Source of the DNA: a virus
IMG/VR virus record: IMGVR_UViG_3300005518_000017
Location: 1-64,000 of that record
Length of the DNA stretch: 64,000 bases
Direction: 5' to 3' (one strand)
Shown: in pieces, positions 6,792 through 64,000 of the stretch
Numbering within the stretch: position 1 is the stretch's first letter
How the letters are laid out: each line of letters begins with the position of its first letter
The notes under the pieces: generated by a model
Databases searched by the model: none
What the model was told of the DNA's origin: nothing
What the model saw: only the letters and a program-made list of their open reading frames with translations
Position numbers and translations under genes: made by a program

Positions 6792-7206
6792 ACTCCAGCA
6801 GCCGGAATCCCCATCTAATAATTGAGTCTTTGAACCGGGTTTCTTCGATCCGTCGTGGGATTTGATTTCCACTATCAACGAGCCAGCCATTTTCCACGAT
6901 GACATAATGACCCGGACCGTCGTCCACGACAAAAAGTAGCCATTCCTCCGGGTGATTACGGGAATATTCTAACACAAGCTTGGCAGAGTAAGCGAAAAAA
7001 TAAATCATGTCAAACTCGATGCCGAATCCAGCGCAGACATCTCGCAAGAACTCCCAAGGAACGCCGAGGGCTGGGTCCGCCCGGCGTTTCGCCAGTTCGG
7101 CGTTACACCATGATACCGGCTTGCCGGTAATTGACGACAGCACCGCAGGTCCACACCAGAGTTTCTGGCCGGGACAATCGTTATTTACGGGAGACAGCTT
7201 TAGCAT
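6775..7206 (-). CDS. C39-like / papain-fold cysteine peptidase domain protein
   Basis: 143 residues without a signal peptide. WCGPAVLSSITG (Cys18), GHYVIVENG (His99) and LVDSG (Asp110) give the Cys-His-Asp order of C39-like thiol proteases. It starts in a TAATG overlap with the dNMP-kinase-like gene, so the two are coupled. It would act in the cytoplasm. The target is unknown. Confidence 0.65.
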   Translation of the reverse strand: MLKLSPVNNDCPGQKLWCGPAVLSSITGKPVSWCNAELAKRRADPALGVPWEFLRDVCAGFGIEFDMIYFFAYSAKLVLEYSRNHPEEWLLFVVDDGPGHYVIVENGWLVDSGNQIPRRIEETRFKDSIIRWGFRLLEYDNRD

Positions 7207-8198
7207 TAGATCACAATTGCGGGGGCGGAACCGGGGGCAGCGACTCCGCCGCCGATTGCCGACAAAAATTCGGCTACGGTATAAAGCCGGGGCGACGGCG
7301 GTGGTTTACTGCTATTCCAAATTACGTTTAGCTTCGACCCAGTTCTCTGCGCAGAAATTTTTCGAGTCACATCAGCGTCGATTGCTGCCGCCAGTTTTTC
7401 AGAATAATCGCTGACTACCGGCGATTTGGAATCCAGCCCGTCTTTCTTTAGCCGTAACGCCCATTCGTCTGATGTCGTCAAGACGTGATAGTGACGAAAA
7501 CCAAATTCTTGCATCCGTTTAAACTCATGCTCGAATCGGACGCTGGTAGTAGCGACGCGTGCGTCTGGTGTATCTGCGAGAAACGCTTCCATGCGCATAA
7601 TCACCGCGTCGAGCCAAATATTGTCATCGTAGCCGAAGGCATCCCAATTGACTTTAAAGTCTTTGATTTCCGAGTGCCGCCCGCCGAACCCGGAAGCCGC
7701 GTGTTCCCGGACGAGATTCACAAAATTCGCGCGCTCGATTGACACTGGATACTGTTCGTTGATCACCCCTCGGCCAAGCTGTCCGCATTGTTGAAGAAAT
7801 TTGCGCGCGCCGTGCTTGTCTTTGTCTTCGACGCCGAAAAAATATTTCAACAGAAAGTAAAGCGGCTCGGAGAATCCGAAAATCTTTGCGCCGGTGAGTC
7901 CTGCCACGTGATCTTTACCAGCCTTAAGACGACCGGTATAAAAAACCTTGGCGCCATCGATTGCCTTCGAGGACGGTTTGGCCGCTTCTGGCGGGGCAAC
8001 TGGGGTGCTGTGTTTTTTTTCGATGGCGTTTACTCCTGCCACGAGAGATTCTACGCGCGCGCCGGTGATTTCAGGATTATTCAAGAAACCCACAAGGTCT
8101 CGCATCACGGCGGCGTCATTGCCGCGCGCGGCGGGGTCTAGCGGCCTTTTTAAAGTTGTGACGAGTAGGTCTTTGGTGTTTTCAATATTTTCGGGCAT
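7206..8198 (-). CDS. deoxynucleoside-monophosphate-kinase-like P-loop protein
   Basis: 330 residues. After about 80 Pro/Ala-rich residues comes YTGRLKAGKDHVA (P-loop 89-96), followed by KIFGFSEPLYFLLKYFFG. This layout is typical of phage dNMP kinases (G-x4-G-K-D, then a FxFxxPL lid region). Conserved Asp/Arg-rich helices and a final AEFLSAIGGG segment follow. The codons for that last segment (7244..7278) are duplicated as 35 identical bases in the repeat region at 15133. A CACTATT element ends just before the ATG. Confidence 0.72.
   Translation of the reverse strand: MPENIENTKDLLVTTLKRPLDPAARGNDAAVMRDLVGFLNNPEITGARVESLVAGVNAIEKKHSTPVAPPEAAKPSSKAIDGAKVFYTGRLKAGKDHVAGLTGAKIFGFSEPLYFLLKYFFGVEDKDKHGARKFLQQCGQLGRGVINEQYPVSIERANFVNLVREHAASGFGGRHSEIKDFKVNWDAFGYDDNIWLDAVIMRMEAFLADTPDARVATTSVRFEHEFKRMQEFGFRHYHVLTTSDEWALRLKKDGLDSKSPVVSDYSEKLAAAIDADVTRKISAQRTGSKLNVIWNSSKPPPSPRLYTVAEFLSAIGGGVAAPGSAPAIVI
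7244..7278. repeat. 35-bp sequence shared with 15133..15167 (inverted)
   Basis: These 35 bases at the 3' end of the kinase-like gene recur, reverse-complemented and without mismatch, in the non-coding divergence region. Here they are coding (part of AEFLSAIGGG). Confidence 0.85.
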
Positions 8199-13199: not shown

Positions 13200-13871
13200 T
13201 CAGTGTTCGTCGTTATCGTGAGGATTCTCCGCCGATTTCTTTTCGTTAGCTAACGCTTGACCTTGCGCCAACTGGGCATCGAAAAGCCGGGCGCGAATGG
13301 AATTCGAGGAGTTAGCGGCGGTCATCGCTTGGGCTAATTTCATATGCAGGTCTGCCGCGCTGATGCTATCGTCACCGTCTTCTTTTCGACGCGCCCTCTC
13401 TGGTGCAGTATCATTGAGCGCCGCATAAGACATCGCCGCCATTTTTTCCAATGCTGACGCCAAATCCGCAAGTGCCCTTGTGGACATACCCCCTCGCATT
13501 ACTTCACCACTCTTCAAATGAATTTTCTCAGGATTTATGAACTGATCTCTAAATTCCTGAGCCGTGAATCCGGTTAACTCAGTCACTACTCGCTCAAGTT
13601 GCATTCGGAATCGATGCGCGAGGACAAAATTCAAAGCGCGATTGCACGCGCGTTCCACATCACCGGGCCGCGTCGATTTTCGCAATTCAATAATTGGCTT
13701 AATCCGAGTAATCCAGCCGTCTGTATCGGCAATCTCAAGCACTTGCTCTGGCCGAATGTTCAGTGCCATTGCAGTTCGTTCCAAGTCCCCGGCGAAAGAA
13801 GCGTAAACCAGAAAAGCTTGAGCACGGTCAAAAGTCTGCGGGAGTAAATTATTGGGCGTTGGTAGTGGCAT
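13200..13871 (-). CDS. HTH-containing protein, candidate terminase small subunit
   Basis: 223 residues from the ATG at 13871. The first 60 residues contain RAQAFLVYASFAGDLERTA and LNIRPEQVLEIADTDGW, a helix-turn-helix pattern common in terminase small subunits. The middle is helical and the C-terminus is an Asn/Lys-rich tail. The large terminase is 10 kb away in the opposite direction, so the small-subunit assignment rests only on the N-terminal pattern. A DNA-binding regulator is the alternative. A GC-rich snapback at 13905..13929 lies upstream of its start. Confidence 0.55.
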   Translation of the reverse strand: MPLPTPNNLLPQTFDRAQAFLVYASFAGDLERTAMALNIRPEQVLEIADTDGWITRIKPIIELRKSTRPGDVERACNRALNFVLAHRFRMQLERVVTELTGFTAQEFRDQFINPEKIHLKSGEVMRGGMSTRALADLASALEKMAAMSYAALNDTAPERARRKEDGDDSISAADLHMKLAQAMTAANSSNSIRARLFDAQLAQGQALANEKKSAENPHDNDEH

Positions 13872-14199: not shown

Positions 14200-14859
14200 T
14201 TACACATCGAAGGTCCAAATTTCTTTTTCCCGGACCGGGTCAAAACCTCGGCGCCCAAAGCCGGAATTGTGCAACTCTTCGCGGACGGCGTCCCACCATT
14301 TCAACGGGTCAGCACCCACATGCCGCAATATCTCCAGAACGGTTAGGCTTACCGTGGCTTCGCCGGGATGACATTTAGCCCAATCGTCGATGACCTTAGT
14401 CATACGGTAAAGAAACTCGGTTATAGTAAACCGGCGGTCTAAATCTGGACGAAGGGCTTTCTTGCTGCGTAAGAACTTTCGTAGACGAAAAATTGTGTTG
14501 GGATGGCCGTTACCGTCGTGCCGCATTTGATCCAGCCGGGCCGTAGCCTCTTCAACTGTGAGACGGGGCCGGGGCCGGGGCCCCTTACGCTCCAATTCTG
14601 GCGGTAGCATCCCAGCAGCGCGAAGAAATCGGCGCAGGTTACAGATTTGAGACGGGCACCCGCGAGTATCGAGGAGATGCTTCAGCTTGGCTATTTTCAC
14701 TTCCACCGAGGCCGCAACAGAACGTTTTTCAAGTTCTGGGGGCAATACGCCCTCGAATCGCAGCGCACGCCGCAAGAGGCAAATCCGGGACGGATCGCCG
14801 TTAGATTTCAGTAATTCAGTCAGCTTGGCTATTCGTTGTTCAGTAGTGTGTGGTTTCAT
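14200..14859 (-). CDS. triple-repeat protein beside the divergence region
   Basis: 219 residues containing three imperfect copies of a motif of about 38 residues: RIAKLTELLKSNGDPSRICL (starting about 9), KIAKLKHLLDTRGCPSQICN (about 55) and ARLDQMRHDGNGHPNTIFRL (about 112). Each is followed by LRRxLR and PxLxR. The copies are helix-loop-helix-like and basic, so tandem DNA-binding modules are plausible. It is the first leftward gene from the repeat-rich region at 14.88-15.86 kb, fitting a role in binding those repeats. No known family is recognised. Confidence 0.65.
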   Translation of the reverse strand: MKPHTTEQRIAKLTELLKSNGDPSRICLLRRALRFEGVLPPELEKRSVAASVEVKIAKLKHLLDTRGCPSQICNLRRFLRAAGMLPPELERKGPRPRPRLTVEEATARLDQMRHDGNGHPNTIFRLRKFLRSKKALRPDLDRRFTITEFLYRMTKVIDDWAKCHPGEATVSLTVLEILRHVGADPLKWWDAVREELHNSGFGRRGFDPVREKEIWTFDV

Positions 14860-14881
14860 GGTAATGAGTGTAGCCGATTAG

Positions 14882-14962
14882 GCGGTTCGGCACAACAACA
14901 ATTTATTTGCGGTTCGTCACAACAACAATTTATTTGCGGTTCGTCACAACAACAATTTATTT
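14882..14962. repeat. three tandem 27-bp direct repeats
   Basis: Copies at 14882-14908, 14909-14935 and 14936-14962, each GCGGTTCG-(G/T)-CACAACAACA followed by ATTTATTT. The third copy runs into the left arm of the large inverted repeat. No spacers separate them, so this is not a CRISPR array; iteron-like protein binding sites are more likely. Confidence 0.9.
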
Positions 14963-15122
14963 AACATTGATTGATGGTATGCCTTTTTGATAAACCCCTA
15001 CTTGGCCCTCCATATAGTTCATACCCCCTCCCCCCTCTAGTATACTATATATTCTAATTCTATCCCTTTTCAAAAAACACATACCATCAATCAATGTTAA
15101 ATAAATTGTTGTTGTGACGAAC
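14939..15122. repeat. 43-bp perfect inverted repeat around a 98-bp A/T-rich centre
   Basis: The left arm 14939-14981 and right arm 15080-15122 are exact reverse complements; pairing continues imperfectly further out. The centre contains TAGTATACTATATATTC and pyrimidine tracts, a region easy to melt. Minus-strand TTGAAA followed 18 bases later by TATAGT inside it could be a promoter. Confidence 0.9.
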
Positions 15123-15132
15123 TGCAACCGCG

Positions 15133-15167
15133 CGTAGCCGAATTTTTGTCGGCAATCGGCGGCGGAG
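15133..15167. repeat. 35-bp non-coding copy of kinase-gene sequence
   Basis: Identical over 35 bases to the reverse complement of 7244..7278. No open frame uses it here. It is flanked by related AACCGCGC-type direct repeats at about 15126 and 15176. Confidence 0.85.
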
Positions 15168-15238
15168 ACGAACCACAACCGCGCACAGCCACTTTTTCGT
15201 AGCGCCGGACTGCACGCTGCCTAATACTACACTAACTT

Positions 15239-15392
15239 AGTTGGAATTCTTATATTTAATAGTTGACTATCTAGTCAACTATTAAGCGAATCGAATCGAG
15301 GAGTTGGGTGTATATAGTTGGAATTCTTATATTTAATAGTTGACTATCTAGTCAACTATTAAGCGGATCGAATCGAGGAGTTGGGTGTATAC
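15239..15392. repeat. two 77-bp tandem repeats with internal 30-bp palindromes
   Basis: Copies 15239-15315 and 15316-15392 differ at only a couple of positions. Each contains the palindrome TTAATAGTTGACTA-TC-TAGTCAACTATTAA (15256-15285 and 15333-15362) and ends with a TTGGGTGTAT half-site. Dimeric protein binding sites are the natural reading. Confidence 0.9.
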
Positions 15393-15428
15393 ACCCAATG
15401 TTTTTACGAGTTGGGTGTATACACCCAA
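15381..15428. repeat. two 18-bp perfect palindromes TTGGGTGTATACACCCAA
   Basis: Copies at 15381-15398 and 15411-15428, spaced 30 bp apart (about three helical turns), plus a half-site at 15304-15313 spaced 77 bp from the first. The regular spacing suggests operators for a dimeric regulator binding one helix face. Confidence 0.85.
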
Positions 15429-15430
15429 CC

Positions 15431-15512
15431 CCTCAGGTAGGCAATATTTGCCGAGCATCTCGATATAAGGTCTAATGGTTGAATGCTCGGCAAGACTTGC
15501 CTACTTTTGAGG
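15431..15512. other. long two-part hairpin
   Basis: GTAGGCAA-TATT-TGCCGAGCAT (15437-15458) and ATGCTCGGCA-AGAC-TTGCCTAC (15483-15504) pair as a stem with a symmetrical internal bulge. CCTCA/TGAGG extends it outward. The loop is about 24 bases. It could be a structured RNA, a terminator (TTTT follows the right arm), or a recombination or replication site. Confidence 0.6.
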
Positions 15513-15689
15513 TCTAACTAGGCAAAATAAGGTCGAAACGGCGTGCCGACGACCTGCCGTGACGACGGTTCGGCGTTGCGCCGCGCGGGCGAGGCGGTTA
15601 GGCGTTATCGTTAAAGCCATGTGGGGGATTTTGCGCGGCGAGGGCCGCTTAGCACTCAAAGGCGGGAATAAAAAATTGGGATCGGGCTT

Positions 15690-15854
15690 TGTAGTTGGCT
15701 GAGCGCGCGCTTTGTGACAACTGATGTTAACGCGAGTGCGCGCTCTGTGACACTGGGATGCGCGCTCTGTGACACTGGAGTGACACTGGAGTGACACTGG
15801 AGTGACACTCAGTAATAATTTGTAGTTGACAGAGCGCGCGCTTTGTGACACTGA
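15690..15854. promoter_or_regulatory. operator/iteron array upstream of the ribbon-helix-helix gene
   Basis: Four copies of GCGCGCT(C/T)TGTGACA at about 15701, 15737, 15758 and 15832. The outer two belong to near-identical 35-bp units (TGTAGTTG-x-GAGCGCGCGC...). Between them an 11-bp unit GTGACACTGGA repeats about four times from 15769. A TTGACA at 15826-15831 and an extended -10-like TGATACTGT at 15852-15860 lie across the last copy, so repressor binding would overlap the promoter. Confidence 0.65.
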
Positions 15855-15862
15855 TACTGTAT

Positions 15863-16315
15863 ATGAGAAAAACCAAAATGCAAAATATCAGCCTAACCCC
15901 CGAAATTACTGCCCGGCTAATCGCCGCAATGGCTACCGGGCGCTGGGTCTCGAAGTCAGAATTCTTCCGGTATGCCATTGAGTTGGCGTTCGAGCGGCAT
16001 AACATCCGGGCGACACCCCTACCGGGAAAACCTGCTCCGGCTCCCGTCCGTCCAGTAGTGACTTCCGCCCCTCCCGTTGTTCCACTCAAAAAATCGAAGG
16101 CCGAGCAGATCGCAGATTCTCTGCGGGATACCGGCCCGTGGACCGAGGCAGAGAAGGCTGAGGTTTTTCGTTCCATGCCAACTGTGACGGAATCTGATCC
16201 CAAATTTGAAGAGTATTGCCTCTGGGCGAGAAATATTGCCTCTGGGCGAGAAATATTGCCTCTGGGCGAGAAAATTATGAAAAATAATTGTTGCGTCCCG
16301 CCGTCGTTGTGCTAG
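15863..16315 (+). CDS. ribbon-helix-helix DNA-binding protein
   Basis: 150 residues from the ATG at 15863; an ATG at 15878 is an alternative if transcripts start at the -10-like box just upstream. The first 40 residues (NISLTPEITARLIAAMATGR, then VSKSEFFRYAIELAFE) fit an Arc/CopG-type ribbon-helix-helix domain. A Pro-rich linker and a helical segment follow. The last 30 residues come from three 20-bp repeats read in three different frames. It directly follows an array of repeated operator-like sites, so it probably binds them and represses its own rightward operon. Confidence 0.7.
   Translation: MRKTKMQNISLTPEITARLIAAMATGRWVSKSEFFRYAIELAFERHNIRATPLPGKPAPAPVRPVVTSAPPVVPLKKSKAEQIADSLRDTGPWTEAEKAEVFRSMPTVTESDPKFEEYCLWARNIASGREILPLGEKIMKNNCCVPPSLC
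16214..16273. repeat. three tandem 20-bp repeats inside a coding region
   Basis: TATTGCCTCTGGGCGAGAAA occurs at 16214, 16234 and 16254. As 20 is not a multiple of three, the copies encode different peptides (YCLWARN, IASGREI, LPLGEKI). The array shifts the C-terminal frame of the ribbon-helix-helix gene and probably arose by slippage. Confidence 0.95.
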
Positions 16316-16920: not shown

Positions 16921-17232
16921 ATGTGGACCCAACGAGAAGCAATTGACCTGTGCATCGCTGTAGAAGCCGCCGCCCCGAAGGCCGGGTGCCATGTGGCTCT
17001 GACCGGCGGCTGTTTATACAAAACCACTTCAGAACCGCGCAAAGATTGCGATTTACTTTTCTACCGGATTCGGCAGAAGCCGAAGATCGATATAGGCCGC
17101 CTTTTTTCGCTCCTCGAAGAACTAGGTTTCAAAAAGATCACCGGGCAGGGATGGCTTTACAAGGCCCGGTATAACGACAAACCGCTCGATCTATTCTTTC
17201 CTGAAAATGAAGATGGAGACTACAATCCATGA
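16921..17232 (+). CDS. nucleotidyltransferase-fold protein (pol-beta-like)
   Basis: 103 residues. VALTGGCLYKTTSEPRKDCD has the Gly-Gly (29-30) and the Asp pair D42/D44, and KPLDLFF supplies a third acidic residue (D90). This is the minimal nucleotidyltransferase fold of small MNT/AntE-type enzymes. It lacks an HEPN partner next to it. It could modify a host tRNA or protein by adding nucleotides. The neighbour at 17229 overlaps by ATGA. Confidence 0.6.
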   Translation: MWTQREAIDLCIAVEAAAPKAGCHVALTGGCLYKTTSEPRKDCDLLFYRIRQKPKIDIGRLFSLLEELGFKKITGQGWLYKARYNDKPLDLFFPENEDGDYNP

Positions 17233-17633
17233 ACTGGCCGAAACCTAAAAATATGAAAGAGATACACATTAAGCGGTTGCTCAAACTAGCTAAACATCTG
17301 CGCAGTGACAAACGCGCGCATAGACGTTTCGATATTCATACTTACAACGCAGGGGTGTGGTTAGGCCCCGATCAATGCGGCACCGTTGGTTGCGCGATTG
17401 GAGAAACGCCCGCAGTGTGGCCCAGCTTGTTCCGATGGGGGTTTGGCGCGGTCTATTCCCGTCGCAACTCTACCGGGTGTACTCAAGGCGACCATCAGCG
17501 ATTTTTTGGGTTAACCTCATTGCAATATATACATTTGTTTTTGCCAGCCGGATATGGTTGGGTGGATGTTTCGGCCTTAGTTGTCGCCGAGCGGATTGAG
17601 CATTTTTGTTCGGGTCGCCATGAAATTCCTTAA
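17229..17633 (+). CDS. paralogue 1 of an unknown CGTxGCAxGExP family
   Basis: 134 residues. IKRLLKLAKHLRSDKRAHRR, then DQCGTVGCAIGETPAVWP, then RFFGLTSLQYIHLFLP. The same layout occurs at 18053 and 19095. The two cysteines of CGTxGC and a conserved C-terminal helix suggest a small metal- or disulphide-stabilised fold. The family is known to me from bacteria and phages only as an uncharacterised conserved protein with a CGTAGCALGW-type core. Coupled to the upstream nucleotidyltransferase. Confidence 0.65.
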   Translation: MNWPKPKNMKEIHIKRLLKLAKHLRSDKRAHRRFDIHTYNAGVWLGPDQCGTVGCAIGETPAVWPSLFRWGFGAVYSRRNSTGCTQGDHQRFFGLTSLQYIHLFLPAGYGWVDVSALVVAERIEHFCSGRHEIP

Positions 17634-18052: not shown

Positions 18053-18481
18053 ATGAGAAAGATTTACATCAACCGGCTTCTGAAATTGGCCAAACATTTG
18101 CGCAGTGGAAAGCTGGCGCACAAGAGATTTAATTTCACTCACTACAACAACGGCAGCTTCGATGGAAATAGCTGCGGCACCTCCGGGTGTGCCATTGGAG
18201 AAGCCCCCGTAGTGTGGCCTAAACTTTTTGAGTGGAAAAGACATCTGGTCTTCGCTAAGGAAGATTCTACCGGGTATGTCTGTGATGACTTTTGCCGGTT
18301 CTTCGGGTTGCGGTTATCCGGATATGAAAAATTATTCATCCCATATTCACTCGAATACAACAAATCAAAACTATCCACATGTGCAACGGCGGTCGATGTC
18401 GCCGAGCACATTGAAAAATTCTGCGTCGAGGCGTCGAGGCGTCGAGGCGTCAAAGGCCCGGCAGATCGAGCGGGAACGTAA
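18053..18481 (+). CDS. paralogue 2 of the CGTxGCAxGExP family
   Basis: 142 residues: INRLLKLAKHLRSGKLAHKR, NSCGTSGCAIGEAPVVWP, then STGYVCDDFCRFFGL and YEKLFIP. It has its own promoter. The C-terminal end (SRRRGVKGPADRAGT) derives from a short GTCGAGGC triplet repeat at about 18423-18450 and is not shared with the paralogues. Function unknown; see 17229. Confidence 0.65.
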   Translation: MRKIYINRLLKLAKHLRSGKLAHKRFNFTHYNNGSFDGNSCGTSGCAIGEAPVVWPKLFEWKRHLVFAKEDSTGYVCDDFCRFFGLRLSGYEKLFIPYSLEYNKSKLSTCATAVDVAEHIEKFCVEASRRRGVKGPADRAGT

Positions 18482-18883: not shown

Positions 18884-19098
18884 ACGAGAACTACGAACAA
18901 GACTATGGCATCGGCAAATTTGTGTTTGTCGCCAAAGTCCAAAATGAGCACACAAAATCGGGAACTGAAACCGTGGAATTCACTATCGAGTTGGACGCGG
19001 ATTACGACTTCTCAGTCGCGAGAGGCCGGGCGGTATTTGCAGTGCTGTTTCCCAAATTGAAAGTCGAGCAAGTGCTCCGCTGCGGGAGGATTACATGA
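18880..19098 (+). CDS. small acidic unknown protein
   Basis: 72 residues, acidic (MNENYEQDYG, then TVEFTIELDADYDFS). It is joined to both neighbours by ATGA overlaps. Beta-rich prediction by eye; no family. Confidence 0.6.
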   Translation: MNENYEQDYGIGKFVFVAKVQNEHTKSGTETVEFTIELDADYDFSVARGRAVFAVLFPKLKVEQVLRCGRIT

Positions 19099-19523
19099 AA
19101 GTCAGGACTGGACGGCTTCTTCGTTTGGCCCGGCATCTTCGCAAGGGGAAATTGGCCCACAAGATTTTTTATTTTGGGGCTTACAATATCACGGTTATTC
19201 CAAAACCGGGAACCGTTTTCCCACTGCGGGCTCACCTTGAACCCGAAACGTGCGGCACGCAAGGATGCGCGTGGGGCGAATGTCCGGTCCTTTGGCCGAA
19301 GCAACTTATGTGGGATGGTAACGCAGTTAGAATGCGGCGCGGAGCCACTGGATTCGTTATCAACGATGCCGCCAAATTTTTTGGTCTTACTTATCAGGAG
19401 GCCATTCAGATATTCGTTCCGGGAAAACTGACCGATCGCGCGACGAAGGAACAAGTTGCGCGCGAGATTGAAGACTTTTGTCGCGAAGCGCGCGACAGTA
19501 ACAAGTGGCTCCGAGAGAGTTGA
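19095..19523 (+). CDS. paralogue 3 of the CGTxGCAxGExP family
   Basis: 142 residues: TGRLLRLARHLRKGKLAHKI, ETCGTQGCAWGECPVLWP, then GATGFVINDAAKFFGLTYQE and a C-terminal helix. It has an insert of about 14 residues before the CGT motif compared with paralogues 1 and 2. The last codons overlap the -35 hexamer of the promoter that drives the protease gene. Confidence 0.65.
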   Translation: MKVRTGRLLRLARHLRKGKLAHKIFYFGAYNITVIPKPGTVFPLRAHLEPETCGTQGCAWGECPVLWPKQLMWDGNAVRMRRGATGFVINDAAKFFGLTYQEAIQIFVPGKLTDRATKEQVAREIEDFCREARDSNKWLRES

Positions 19524-22047: not shown

Positions 22048-22521
22048 ATGAGAGCGATTCAGCTTACTCGCGGGAAAGTGGCTTTTGTAGATGACGAAGA
22101 CTACGAATCAGTTTCTGATTTTTCATGGCGTGCCGTGCTATGTAACGGAAAGTGGTATGCGAGAGCATATGTCGGGGGCGGGGCGAGTAACCCGGTAGAT
22201 AAATATTTGCATCATTTATTGTTGGGAGGAATCAGGGTAGATCATATTGATAGTAATGGGCTAAATAATTGTCGAGATAATTTGCGTCCCGCCACACAGC
22301 AACAGAATCGGTGGAATTCTGCCAGTCATTCAGATGCTATTAGTAAATTTAAAGGAGTGTCCGTAGACCCCCGGCGCAAGAAAAAATGGCGAGCCAGAAT
22401 ACTATGTTCTGGTAAATCGCATTGGTTGGGTTATTTTTATTCTGAACAGGAGGCGGCGGATGCCTACGACAAATCGGCCAAAGAACTGTTTGGAGAATTC
22501 GCCAAACTTAATCGGGTATGA
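22048..22521 (+). CDS. HNH-AP2 homing-type endonuclease
   Basis: 157 residues. N-terminal RAIQLTRGKVAFVDDEDYES, HNH core around HHLLLGGIRVDHIDSNGLNN and NCRDNLRPAT, and a C-terminal AP2 domain (FKGVSVDPRRKKKWRARI) ending KELFGEFAKLNRV. It has its own host-type promoter, unlike the two paralogues that depend on upstream genes. The last codon overlaps the recombinase start. Confidence 0.9.
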   Translation: MRAIQLTRGKVAFVDDEDYESVSDFSWRAVLCNGKWYARAYVGGGASNPVDKYLHHLLLGGIRVDHIDSNGLNNCRDNLRPATQQQNRWNSASHSDAISKFKGVSVDPRRKKKWRARILCSGKSHWLGYFYSEQEAADAYDKSAKELFGEFAKLNRV

Positions 22522-23375
22522 CTGGCTTCGCCTACATTCGGGTAAGCGGTGCGAGTCAAGTGGATAAGGATGGTCCCATCCGCCAGCGCGACGCAATCAA
22601 ATCCTTCTGCGGCCAGCACAAGATTGAACTCATTGATGAGTTTTTTGAAGCCGGAGTTTCCGGGGCAAAAGACTCTATGGATCGCCCCGCTTTTCGAGAT
22701 TTAATCAATATGGCCGCGCGTTGTCGCGAGCGAGGAATCCCGGTCGAGGCAATTATTGTCGAACGAATGGACCGGATGGCGCGCGATTTGATGATCAGCG
22801 AAATCATGCTCAAAAATTGCAGAGATAATAAGCTTCAAGTGTTTGCGTCGGATCATGGAACACTCACTGATATGGCTTCGGATGGCGACGACCCCACGCG
22901 AAAATTAATACGACAAATTTTTTCTGCCCTGAGTGAGTGGGAAAAAAATGTAATTGTGAAAAAACTGCAAGCGGCCCGCCGTCGCCTTCAATTTGAAGGT
23001 CGTCCATTTGGCCATGCGGTTCGCTACGGCGGCAAGCCGGGGGAACAGGCGGTTATCCGGGACATGCACGAACTCTATATCATTCGCGGATACAGTCTGT
23101 CCAGAACGGCGGAAGAATTGAACAAGCTGGGTCATCAGACTCGCTTTGGAAGGCCGTGGAGAGTGGGGACCGTGCTAAACGTTTTGGAAAAAACTACGGA
23201 GGTGAGGGAGCCGGAGACCGTCCAAGAAGAAATTGATCAAATCCGAGAGCACAAAATTCATACTCGCGGACATCCGCTTTTCTTGATTCCCCTTAATCCG
23301 CATACACTTAGGGTTCCTAAACAGATTCCGAGGAGTGGGAAAACTGAATCAGAGATGGTGGAAATTTCGGGGTAA
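22518..23375 (+). CDS. serine recombinase
   Basis: 285 residues. FAYIRVSGASQ places the nucleophile at Ser10. QRDAIKSFC, FFEAGVSGAKDS and IIVERMDRMARD are the resolvase-domain active-site segments (about 1-150). A recombinase-type domain with HTH (about 175-225) and a short basic tail follow. It is shorter than the large phage integrases (often above 450 residues) and has no attachment site or repressor I can identify nearby. Roles could be dimer resolution, inversion of a segment, or integration. Confidence 0.85.
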   Translation: MTGFAYIRVSGASQVDKDGPIRQRDAIKSFCGQHKIELIDEFFEAGVSGAKDSMDRPAFRDLINMAARCRERGIPVEAIIVERMDRMARDLMISEIMLKNCRDNKLQVFASDHGTLTDMASDGDDPTRKLIRQIFSALSEWEKNVIVKKLQAARRRLQFEGRPFGHAVRYGGKPGEQAVIRDMHELYIIRGYSLSRTAEELNKLGHQTRFGRPWRVGTVLNVLEKTTEVREPETVQEEIDQIREHKIHTRGHPLFLIPLNPHTLRVPKQIPRSGKTESEMVEISG

Positions 23376-58400: not shown

Positions 58401-58649
58401 GCTTTTTCTCAGAAGGCTTTTCGTGCTGCCGCTGAGAAGTATGGTGTCAAGCCGGATGCACTTCAGGGCGCGCTGTGGTTCGCCGAAAAATCTCTGTGGG
58501 CTGAAAAGGGTTGGAGCGCGTTAGACTACGGCGATTTCCGTAAAGAGATGGAAAAAATCCCAGCCTTGCGCAAGGCTATGCAGTCTCAAACTGACGAGAC
58601 GCCGCCCGCAATCACACCCGATTTAATCACGGCAAGAAAGAAAAAGTAA
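52428..58649 (+). CDS. giant internal/ejection protein with HExxH protease motif
   Basis: 2073 residues. It is the largest gene here and sits where podoviruses encode pore-forming ejection proteins. A Gly/Ala-rich hydrophobic stretch (about 298-325: VLPVAGAVIGGAKFGPAGIL) could insert in membranes. APHESFHAIQ at about 545-554 is a zinc-metalloprotease HExxH motif (H547, E548, H551). The last 250 residues (WYSDFTTKFKKEFGKDSQLM, AATSPQTDVSMNFRYAFEAV, DLWADRTMRRIGYSD) form a domain found at the end of other very large phage proteins. Pro/Gln-rich linkers separate the domains. No lysozyme is seen. Confidence 0.75.
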   Translation: MPLTPEEIAEANSLESAAQPKPLNPIKDLSAQELVDLTTKDPDNFDLVSEFQRNKDLWADSNLVQKVADAHNLVKQRGFQFSDLPGPKKLLKSGFDVVKGFGKQIWNYANAAGAAVAGQLVPGSEEEMNREAQRRVAESFSGTESAVTGLAEMGKRGIEKAGRGLGISKPLTQFTPEEKVKDLFDAVGAGETQEEILKGHGGFMQPVGGEVIKELEQKGMPVRPEETQALAAGDPFSWYLFGKALQPVEAAGKAVAGALPTIKGAKGLTGAVGESLEQTGKAIQQSGRAAEVVPKVATPVLPVAGAVIGGAKFGPAGILGGLAAGKQAAGGVGKVAAPIAAGAKKLGSSLESLGKQIAGSAPMKSAYAQIGKDILEATPGAVASTAKGAALDIGLAAATSETPQETGGVGLGTALGALGGAGRIGKRVISGQIIAPREFGATAAIPSSGQFPTLDAMHQSAFAGAEPGVKLRLNAIREFVKGAAPGTDVFLAKDAPSLESALVQSGVSPEQAKQWSQQEGIFTRDLPSKDGATRRVIIAKNVDSAPHESFHAIQDVIGEEGNRQIDDLVKKEYADQWDTEGNRYAHRLGIDLKTNTWEEGILDKSGWGIDAAKEKLIQTYGTPKAAADVLQMAVEGAKERNPQASEQQIWRDILTPEEAKAEADRYIARELAAENFDAVFKHGGPRLENQTLPGQLARLAAKIMVGLGIEPLAGRKTEIGQIEPKFRVAESVQQIGKVTPGETIVPKTSSTPTPPTAPLSPEGEILRNWIAKNPITVPDRARAASAIADAAEQGKAVQVIYYGAKGEPGGSIESERPERRAEIESQREAENKDRPLVRKTFTPERVEITGKGPQIIGWSPDNFFANANKLAEWASKTGVALPYEIADGKFTDAGWNSLQADLKTFMQNQRAGATGSGEALVVPKETLARGFTQPKAEGTPQALDQARADIINYLFGTKIPETTSRVAPLHIAGQEISAATAPGRVEIPVRPRGEYTEAQLLKAGIVEPKGVREVNPFRQQIENTAKQTGVPVPELIEVSQRLNLNRIADASVAPEVQPIRANTLTLAAGFQPREWRVQGVRNGTKDEQTFKADTENEARQMALANGLRPTSVSAAGENAALASGMFQPPKLSKEPEAIKIAAVRFPNGKIYTADESLTHGGALRKAFNAGEPRTEGYDVGFTTNAGEFLSRKAAFKRAKEFGQITGEEYTPRPGELESVMFEGAKAGPAIRMESQFQPKTAQEIEQMSSEDFQKWTQTLPGGFTKFAYDLGQGAADKGPEEVAKLRDSYSALQDQAAKLLQTDVQTAMTTSFKAQLFREAWEAATGLGSGGEMMRTLRAKSQAQPAKEDFKFPERSASGFKKAWILPDGTPVQLGGKWHHQWLAENKDVIGLDVPPFEGTDTAGVREKALQKGFVRVNYTVRSGSMNVEARAADWPNQKEAIRSMVEANAPDLDNIHISLTNEAGDKVIRSESAKLFELDDADKMSRIPLMENAEITPRKELGPAVEPEALRPPPVEEPSAVKGKAKSIEETLKNQAQPELFSDPEFESRLDEVRNGSRAGETFTPGGNSWRTGGKDYDIVTLASVNVPKKELTADRVRTELAPYSELLKTPGVVAGVFSFEKDGKPMVSIDLNAAVPQEHRENSVNFAKANNQISIWDASAAEEVKTGGTGETTLKTPEQINKILKPLLAGEPVDIETAIKSQAQPKAQEDLFGTEGEQHKRPLSSSELGGMTNQQIKEYYPESVIPKSREDRIQSKITESPLYKKAGDEDAAVNAFADKLVEFAHSRENDPAFKDGMEWYSDFTTKFKKEFGKDSQLMAEMLAATSPQTDVSMNFRYAFEAVESMKAGRFDKIISKFNEGLGMMEDGSWEKWINKEIKAGRVPDPPAKLTPATFMAHWVMTHNLKPIRPNGKLFGLHSTNVLRVFARRWLDMSVGPKTKNFVANLLGDSHEATIDLWADRTMRRIGYSDFQERWRILPKNLHPVSDKDFAFSQKAFRAAAEKYGVKPDALQGALWFAEKSLWAEKGWSALDYGDFRKEMEKIPALRKAMQSQTDETPPAITPDLITARKKK

Positions 58650-62108: not shown

Positions 62109-62771
62109 TCAATTAGTGTAGAATTCTTTAATATCCCACAAGCGGTTTCTCACCTTCCGCAGCGCGTGAGAGTGTGTGCCTTGCACTGCGGAACGAGTGA
62201 TTTCCAGCATCCGCCCAATCTCTTTGAAATTAAAACCGCCCCGGTAATGTAAATCGACAATCATACGTTCTTGGTCATTCAACTCCCACGCCAATATCGG
62301 GGCGACCCGTGCCCAGCGTTCCTTAATGTGAATTTTGTCAAATTCCGGCTCCACTAAATTCGGGGGATTTAACAATTTGATATATGAGCACTTCTTATCT
62401 TCGGAATCTTCGTCCGTTTGAATTTCATCGATATACTCGACGCATTCCCCGTTTGCAACGATTTTCAATCGGCTCCATGTTCGTCGAATTTCCCCCCGGA
62501 TATAAGGTTTTGCGTAACCGAAAAACCGGGACTCAGCAAACCGCCGGTTGAGATTGGGCTTGTAGTTCTTGGCGGCGTTTGTCAAAGCGGTGTAGCAGAG
62601 AGAAAACAAATCTCCATCGGGCAATTGTCCGTGAGAGGTATTCTTGGAGTAAGAAAACGCCTCGCGCATGTTGGCGAGAACCAGTTTAGTTCGGCCCGCA
62701 GCGGTCTTGACGGCAGCGGATTCTTGTTTCAACGTCAGCGGAGTTTCTGGCAACCCAGATAAGATGTTCAT
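62109..62771 (-). CDS. phage-encoded sigma factor (sigma70-like, regions 2 and 4)
   Basis: 220 residues. Region 2-like helices (about 50-105: FSLCYTALTNAAKNYKPNLN, FFGYAKPYIRGEIRRTWSRL) resemble the SLxxxLxxAxxxYdp...FxxYaxxxIrgeI core of group 3 sigmas. The C-terminal ELNDQERMIVDLHYRGGFNF, KEIGRMLEITRSAVQG and THSHALRKVRNRLW form region 4 with its HTH. There is no region 1 and little region 3. It is coupled to the D5-like gene. Candidate reader of the TTGAC/CACTAAT promoters; one lies at the end of its own coding region. Confidence 0.8.
   Translation of the reverse strand: MNILSGLPETPLTLKQESAAVKTAAGRTKLVLANMREAFSYSKNTSHGQLPDGDLFSLCYTALTNAAKNYKPNLNRRFAESRFFGYAKPYIRGEIRRTWSRLKIVANGECVEYIDEIQTDEDSEDKKCSYIKLLNPPNLVEPEFDKIHIKERWARVAPILAWELNDQERMIVDLHYRGGFNFKEIGRMLEITRSAVQGTHSHALRKVRNRLWDIKEFYTN
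62112..62141 (-). promoter_or_regulatory. phage-class promoter, TTGTGG-N17-CACTAAT
   Basis: On the minus strand TTGTGG (62136..62141), 17 bases, CACTAAT (62112..62118); RuvC-like ATG at 62105. It overlaps the last codons of the sigma gene. Confidence 0.55.
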
Positions 62772-64000
62772 AGTTTTTCGATTTGGGGCGGCGTTGGCGG
62801 CAGTGTCGAATTGGCAGAAGCGCCGCGCCTATAAAAAATCCACGTTCGAGTTTTTTCTTCCCCGCAGGTTTCTACGGAGCATTTCAACAAATTCTCTCGC
62901 TGGATCATCTCAAGATACCGGGCCGATTGTTCCATTCGGATAGCCCGGATCATGTGTTCGTTGGTGGGATTCCACATGAGCAGTCGCGTAATCTGAGTGA
63001 CAGTCCCTCGAAATTCCCGTTCATTCGGGTTTACTATAAACCATTGATCGAGGGCTTCCAACAATAATTCTTTGAATGGAGTTGATTTACTCCCCTGATG
63101 CGCCTGATCAAGCAAAGTTTTTTCGTGATACGCCGCGTAGCCGTATCGAGAATCCCGCGTAACGTGCTCCGGGGGTTCCCAAGCCAGCAGCCAGCGCAGG
63201 AAATAAGGCAATTCCTGCTCAATCGTGCCTGCGATTTCCGCGCGCGTAGTGAATAGACTGCGGGTGCCCGCTCCACATCGAAAAATACAAGTTTTATCCG
63301 CGCTCGAATTATCCATCGGGCCGAGGACCTTGCTTGAGATGTAATCCGTGTTAGTAGTGCAAATGATACGGCCCATCCATTCAGTCATGGTAGACACTTC
63401 AAATTTTTTGTTATGAGAAATTTCTTGATTGGCAGCGGTTTTTTTCCACATTGCTTGAAAATTATTATACGCCGCTTGGGACTCCCCCATAGTCTCGTCA
63501 TCCACACACCAAAGCGGATACTCGATCAAGTGAGAATTGAAATTTGAACCCCCGATAAGAAAGGAAGAAGCATCCGCGAACCCGCCTACAGATTTTCCGA
63601 CTAGATGCCGACTAGTGAGTGTTTTACCGGTGCCTGCCTCGCCCATCAGAAAAATATTCTGGCCGGGCACCGGGGTTTGGTTCACCGCAGCGGTGTAGTA
63701 ATACTTCCACCACGCCAAGAAGAATTCCTTTTGGTGCGCCGGTTCAAAGAGAGTATCCAGAAGCTTTGAGAGAAAAGGAAATCTGCCCTTTTCTCCCCAC
63801 GGGGTCCACTCAATCGCGGCTTGCACCGGCTTTCCCATATAGGTATTCAGTTTTCGCCGCCCCATGAAATCAATCAATCCCGAAGGGCGAAAGATAAATG
63901 GGGCCGCGCCGTCTATCCGTCCGTTATTATAGATATGATTCAAAGCCATGTCGATCATTGATATTCCCGCGTTTCCGGGTTTGGCGGTCAATCCACATTC
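62768..64000 (-). CDS. SF3/D5-type helicase-primase ATPase, N-terminus outside the window
   Basis: At least 410 residues; the frame is open to base 64000. FLMGEAGTGKT is Walker A. YPLWCVDDE is a Walker B-like acidic strand, and IICTTNTDYIS fits the SF3 sensor. FLRWLLAWEP and a C-terminal winged-helix-like region (FKELLLEALDQWF) follow. This is the ATPase half of D5-like helicase-primases, used in phage replication. The primase part presumably lies beyond the window end. The stop overlaps the sigma-factor start. Confidence 0.75.
   Translation of the reverse strand, partial: ECGLTAKPGNAGISMIDMALNHIYNNGRIDGAAPFIFRPSGLIDFMGRRKLNTYMGKPVQAAIEWTPWGEKGRFPFLSKLLDTLFEPAHQKEFFLAWWKYYYTAAVNQTPVPGQNIFLMGEAGTGKTLTSRHLVGKSVGGFADASSFLIGGSNFNSHLIEYPLWCVDDETMGESQAAYNNFQAMWKKTAANQEISHNKKFEVSTMTEWMGRIICTTNTDYISSKVLGPMDNSSADKTCIFRCGAGTRSLFTTRAEIAGTIEQELPYFLRWLLAWEPPEHVTRDSRYGYAAYHEKTLLDQAHQGSKSTPFKELLLEALDQWFIVNPNEREFRGTVTQITRLLMWNPTNEHMIRAIRMEQSARYLEMIQRENLLKCSVETCGEEKTRTWIFYRRGASANSTLPPTPPQIEKL

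Follow-up and report, generated by a model that had tools for sequence, protein, structure and literature searches.

The switch from leftward to rightward genes in this phage lies between a leftward gene at 14200-14859 (minus strand) and a rightward gene at 15863-16315 (plus strand). In repeat density the intervening region exceeds every other kilobase of the window, that is, of the whole 64-kb stretch analysed (positions 1-64000 of the 68,628-base virus record IMGVR_UViG_3300005518_000017). Here, repeated or inverted 12-mers account for 290-362 bases per 1-kb segment (starts 14500-15250), whereas the median for the 64-kb stretch is 0. A preliminary description had reported six repeat families within 1 kb at this gene switch and had read them together as a candidate replication origin; both the gene switch and every named repeat element were found at the positions given. 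Based on the comparisons described below, we regard the region as a divergent control region consisting of an old core and newer right-hand additions.

The phage (68.6 kb) belongs to a family of uncultivated soil phages with genomes of 69-75 kb. At least 122 relatives were detected in IMG/VR by their terminase protein, and no TerL relatives were found among 50,697 phage records; the name terminase derives from sequence motifs and from the role of this protein as family anchor, with no library match behind it. A host search in bacterial genomes gave a lone match, to the terminase at 45% identity. It lies on a 12.7-kb contig from a Peribacteraceae MAG and is not conclusive. The gene set includes a family A DNA polymerase, a DUF5906 primase-helicase, a RuvC-like resolvase and a sigma-70-like factor, and further an SF2 helicase, a DUF2800 exonuclease, an RNA ligase, a short serine recombinase and the terminase. 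The recombinase gene (22518-23375; 230-293 aa) is present upstream of the terminase in 16/16 near-complete genomes. Three relatives are self-closing, with end overlaps of 70 or 127 bases, and contig starts differ among relatives, so that the map is circular or permuted. As anchor for the family comparison we used a small-terminase-like gene, which occurs in 16/16 near-complete relatives.

The core is a quasi-palindrome of 194 bp (14934-15127), made up of two 55-bp arms (14934-14988 and 15073-15127; 52/55 positions paired) and an 84-nt spacer. The previously described 43-bp exact inverted repeat forms the central part of these arms. The core has an ungapped inverted-repeat score of 46, and local shuffles reach no more than 11. 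Aligned to its own reverse complement, the full 194 bp matches in 148/203 columns, for a score of 113 against a maximum of 38 in shuffles. The A/T-rich centre that had also been claimed is not clearly present: with 42% GC and C-tracts the spacer is at most mildly A/T-rich, the A/T-richest 50 bp nearby, at 22% GC, belong to the 77-bp repeats, and the window has six further places that are as A/T-rich as these. An exact search of IMG/VR with the arm sequence gave no match.

Three direct repeats of 27 bp flank the palindrome on the left (14882-14962; 96-100% identical). They repeat the outer part of the left arm in tandem, the innermost copy being the arm's own outer half. At the right edge we found a seventh element, missed before: an exact inverted 35-nt copy (15133-15167, plus strand) of the 3' end of gene 7206-8198 (source side 7241-7278), whose product shows a weak match to deoxynucleoside monophosphate kinase. 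This copy and the abundant tandem duplications indicate a site prone to rearrangement. A degenerate 34-nt direct repeat spans 15116-15200 on the plus strand (copies 15116-15149 and 15167-15200), with TTTTTCGT at 15193. Using blastn against phages, no homologues of the region were found.

Further to the right, the stretch 15238-15391 is made up of two 77-bp units in tandem that are 99% identical to each other, and each unit contains a perfect 30-bp palindrome (15256-15285 and 15333-15362). Two 18-bp palindromes, TTGGGTGTATACACCCAA, occupy 15381-15428 (starts 15381 and 15411, 30 bp apart). Next come a long stable hairpin of 82 nt on the plus strand (15431-15512; -42.5 kcal/mol, z = -7.6) and an array (15704-15854, plus strand) with four copies of GCGCGCT(C/T)TGTGACA (15705, 15738, 15760 and 15836) and the 11-bp repeat GTGACACTGGA (15769-15809). 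We saw the 77-bp repeats, both kinds of palindrome, the hairpin and the TGTGACA array in no other phage, and TGTGACA is absent from the motifs enriched beside the palindromes of relatives. As these repeats look like operators and were observed in one phage only, the six families do not form one origin, and only the palindromic core, whose position is conserved in the family, stays a candidate for that role. The 77-bp units and the TTGGGTGTATACACCCAA palindromes are likely operators. The GCGCGCT-TGTGACA repeats, previously called iterons, are present as such and are probably operators as well.

The array stops 8 bases before the first rightward gene (15863-16315), which encodes a 150-aa probable ribbon-helix-helix DNA-binding protein. 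This assignment draws on a weak Pfam RHH_1 match at the N-terminus (E = 0.09, below the cut-off) and on a low-confidence structure model that places helices at suitable positions (13-24 and 31-45) and gave no fold match. The simplest reading of this weak evidence is that the TGTGACA array may serve as autoregulatory operator of the gene. Known omega-type ribbon-helix-helix repressors act on short direct repeats (heptads; work cited in PMC9178275); the two systems are alike in that a probable ribbon-helix-helix gene stands behind a repeat array, whereas the repeat period in the phage is at least 11 bp and the domain match lies below the cut-off. The 3' part of the gene itself carries three exact 20-bp repeats (16214-16273), each copy in a different frame.

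We then compared the core across the family by an ungapped inverted-repeat scan of the whole genomes of 16 near-complete members, the window phage included. In 11/16 genomes, the strongest inverted repeat of the entire genome is a palindrome at the leftward/rightward switch (window phage 46, G013 28, G010 43, G017 55, G019 45, G014 41, G015 18, G018 33, G021 72, G011 20, G016 30). These scores of 18-72 compare with 12-18 for the runner-up in each genome and 11-13 in shuffled genomes; only in the window phage does the runner-up reach 24, and there it is formed by the two 30-bp palindromes described above, within the same kilobase. The palindrome site coincides with the strand switch in 11/11 cases and falls within the divergent intergenic gap in 10/11, according to our own gene calls; the exception is G011, where it overlaps the start of a called gene. 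Such a family-conserved location is what would be expected of an origin. Spacers range from 38 to 176 nt, and the palindrome centre is the A/T-richest 50 bp of the genome in 6/11 genomes. The remaining five genomes (G006, G007, G008, G009 and G020) showed no inverted repeat scoring above 16 in the whole-genome scan. When partial contigs are counted, 17-18 of 25 distinct phages have the palindrome. In a tree of core proteins the palindrome-less genomes are scattered, so that the palindrome is probably ancestral in the family and was lost at least four times. All five palindrome-less relatives retain the polymerase and the primase-helicase, which implies that the palindrome is not strictly required. 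A search of open-licence papers found no report of a comparable family-wide palindrome. An unassigned 274-aa protein (178-1002), without match in Pfam, PHROG or PDB, is encoded in 11/11 genomes with the palindrome and 2/5 without; since it was picked from many families, this phyletic partnership is only a hint.

The dyad is conserved between phages and the arm sequence is not. Using blastn, no similarity was found inside the palindromes of different phages; the only stretch detected, 38 bp common to L125 and L135, lies immediately beyond the palindrome. No 6- to 8-mers shared among the arms, and no motifs in arms or spacers, rose above shuffles, and no iteron or initiator site shared among the arms was found. 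Even L106 and L132, whose small-terminase-like proteins are 74% identical, have unrelated arms (the L132 palindrome is weak), with the same outcome for the next pairs at 58-62% identity; at this degree of relatedness of the neighbouring gene product, unrelated arms indicate that the symmetry itself is kept. The arms are 80-100% paired, with 24 G-T and 18 A-C mismatches. These near-equal counts give no support for selection on RNA pairing, and an RNA hairpin was rejected on the lack of wobble bias and on Rfam matches, which pointed to hairpins of a generic kind and fell far short of the gathering scores.

Long palindromes are unstable in bacteria. That such an element has mostly been kept at one position while its sequence was fully turned over points to a structural signal in the DNA. 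In its strictest form, this would mean that a start of replication, or a master control site, is recognised by shape, with any long enough inverted repeat with an openable centre being sufficient and the arm letters free to change provided both arms change together; we consider this strict form unlikely. Alternatively, the palindrome might be an incidental by-product of inverted duplications that arose by template switching and persist without function. The lack of conserved sequence, the 35-nt inverted copy of a distant gene beside the palindrome and the many local tandem duplications would all fit. However, one position in 11/16 genomes, always with the top inverted repeat and with arms this well paired, is hard to reconcile with an absence of selection, and we therefore judge a functionless by-product very improbable.

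A further explanation is a processing or packaging site, such as a cruciform cut by a RuvC-like resolvase, a pac site or a hairpin-telomere junction. The phage encodes a RuvC-like resolvase, a small-terminase-like gene adjoins the palindrome in relatives, and a target defined by structure only would explain the free divergence of sequence. On the other hand, contig ends are scattered relative to the palindrome and three relatives self-close, so the palindrome is not a genome end. With spacers of 38-176 nt, the element does not resemble a telomere-resolution palindrome; besides this departure from a contiguous palindrome, no protelomerase was found among the proteins scanned, which were part of the gene set. 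In all relatives examined, a small basic gene and the small-terminase-like gene run rightward from the palindrome, whereas here the small-terminase-like gene (13200-13871) and the small basic gene (start 14091, leftward) are inverted and lie on its other side. The neighbourhood has thus been rearranged and the gene pair moved, but the palindrome stayed at the divergence point. Taken together, we regard a processing or packaging role as improbable.

The main rival to an origin is a purely transcriptional element, either a dyad of regulator sites or mirrored promoter or leader sequences, with replication starting elsewhere. We consider this a real possibility, if a somewhat doubtful one. In every genome that has one, the palindrome lies exactly between both transcription units, and five relatives manage without it. 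Moreover, the spacer of the window phage contains two overlapping, opposed sigma-70-like promoter matches (15018-15073), with one -35 box abutting an arm. Such matches are, however, at chance level (3 found, 1.9 expected). The leftward gene adjoining the palindrome in relatives (alignment A6) encodes an unassigned N-terminal domain and a coiled-coil region, and its product may bind DNA, which would suit a regulator. For the first gene of the leftward unit in the window phage (14200-14859; 219 aa, with three internal repeats of about 46 aa read from the translation) no homologue was found, and its similarity to the gene beside the palindrome in relatives was not significant.

Against a transcriptional role, operators are usually shorter than arms of 60-78 bp, no binding motif is common to the arms, and two relatives have repeated promoter-like sites outside the palindrome. 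In G010, one 16-mer stands at the start of both divergent units, outside the palindrome, and recurs upstream of a third gene; in G013, the site on the leftward side, likewise outside the palindrome, is found again in front of a further leftward gene. With such sites on both sides in G010 and on the left in G013, the palindrome seems, at the level of sequence, to stand between promoters rather than to be them. For the window phage, weak matches point to predicted promoters outside the palindrome. The candidate leftward promoter TTGTGC-17-TACACT (14867-14895, minus strand) was read from the sequence and has a weak -35 box (3/6), and its TACACT part resembles TTGTGATACACT and GTGCTACACT, which precede two leftward genes in G013. 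TTTTTCGT is enriched to the right of the palindrome in relatives and was considered as part of it. As it also precedes the relocated small gene and turns up at other places in other genomes, it is probably a promoter element instead.

The preliminary description had proposed cumulative GC skew as a check on the origin. A minimum is indeed found at the region (15236), with the maximum at 58551, near gene convergence and about 0.65 of the circle away rather than opposite the minimum. In G013 the skew does not fall on the left side, and in G018 its sign is reversed. Because the extremes track gene direction and do not lie opposite each other, and because the skew is absent or reversed in some relatives, GC skew does not discriminate an origin, and we rejected it as a test.

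The candidate initiator is a 726-aa primase-helicase encoded on the minus strand (62768-64000, continuing to 64948 outside the window). It matches Pfam DUF5906, and its AlphaFold model (pLDDT 83.9) is most similar to the C-terminal region of NrS-1 polymerase (E 1e-11, 13% identity), with further fold matches to ASFV PrimPol, monkeypox (MPXV) E5, poxvirus D5 and the SaPI5 primase-helicase. The model combines an AEP-like with an SF3/D5-like fold: the family encodes a primase of PrimPol type and an SF3-like helicase in one fused protein. With this protein and its family A polymerase, the phage has its own machinery of a kind that uses a dedicated origin. The phage NrS-1 primase-polymerase (PMC7102993) is the best structural match, but the phage family differs in having a separate family A polymerase. 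Rep helicases of SaPIs recognise dedicated iteron origins located directly downstream of the helicase gene (PMC7581432). The SaPI/SCCmec Rep/Cch2 replicons resemble our phage in using an element-encoded, D5-like primase-helicase machinery at a dedicated origin (PMC7581432). They differ in that their origins are short iterons beside the helicase gene, whereas the candidate in the phage is a palindrome about 19 kb away around the circle. No SaPI-type iterons were recognised in the phage family, and 62768-64948 overlaps 62109-62771, leaving no gap for an origin directly downstream of the helicase gene.

A replication origin between divergent promoters is, in our assessment, the best single explanation of the core, a tentative one held at somewhat less than even confidence. 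In support of this part of the original proposal, the core is conserved in position, is the top inverted repeat and occurs in a phage with its own replication genes; GC skew does not serve as proof, and the 5/16 genomes without a palindrome speak against it. With the core placed back to back between leftward replication genes and rightward structural genes, its centre could open, aided by the negative supercoiling that arises as two promoters fire outward from it, and the arms would be able to fold as hairpins. The phage PrimPol/SF3-type primase-helicase might then load onto both strands, and two forks would leave. The right-hand additions would act as operators beside this core.

A similar layout is known from the alphaherpesvirus origins oriL and oriS, where a palindrome with an A/T-rich centre lies between divergent genes and the arms carry conserved initiator boxes. 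The phage arms, unlike these, have no shared motif, and we claim no homology. Divergent ul29-ul30 transcripts overlap oriL (PMC10541914). Among phages, the cluster O mycobacteriophages (Corndog and others) also have an A/T-rich element with complex repeats between divergent operons, which the authors call a plausible origin (PMC4351075). Their 39-nt A/T element is near-invariant among close relatives, in contrast to the arms described here, and the part of that account drawn on here describes no long palindrome of free sequence (PMC4351075). If the core is an origin, it would offer a sequence-independent rule for finding origins in unknown phages with PrimPol-helicases, and recognition of an origin by shape could be put to the test in this family; if transcriptional, the core would represent an unusually long dyad control element.

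Other features were observed elsewhere in these genomes. Three related small rightward genes follow each other in a row (17229-17633, 18053-18481 and 19095-19523) and are apparently paralogues, as judged by eye. Also by eye, we recognised HNH-type proteins with an AP2-like C-terminal region at 1420-1923 and 22048-22521 and in the relative L009 (4948-5406), which are probably homing endonucleases. In the relative G006 (L017, 13774-14160), a gene for alanine-rich AEWAA repeats contains a 260-bp low-complexity tandem array.
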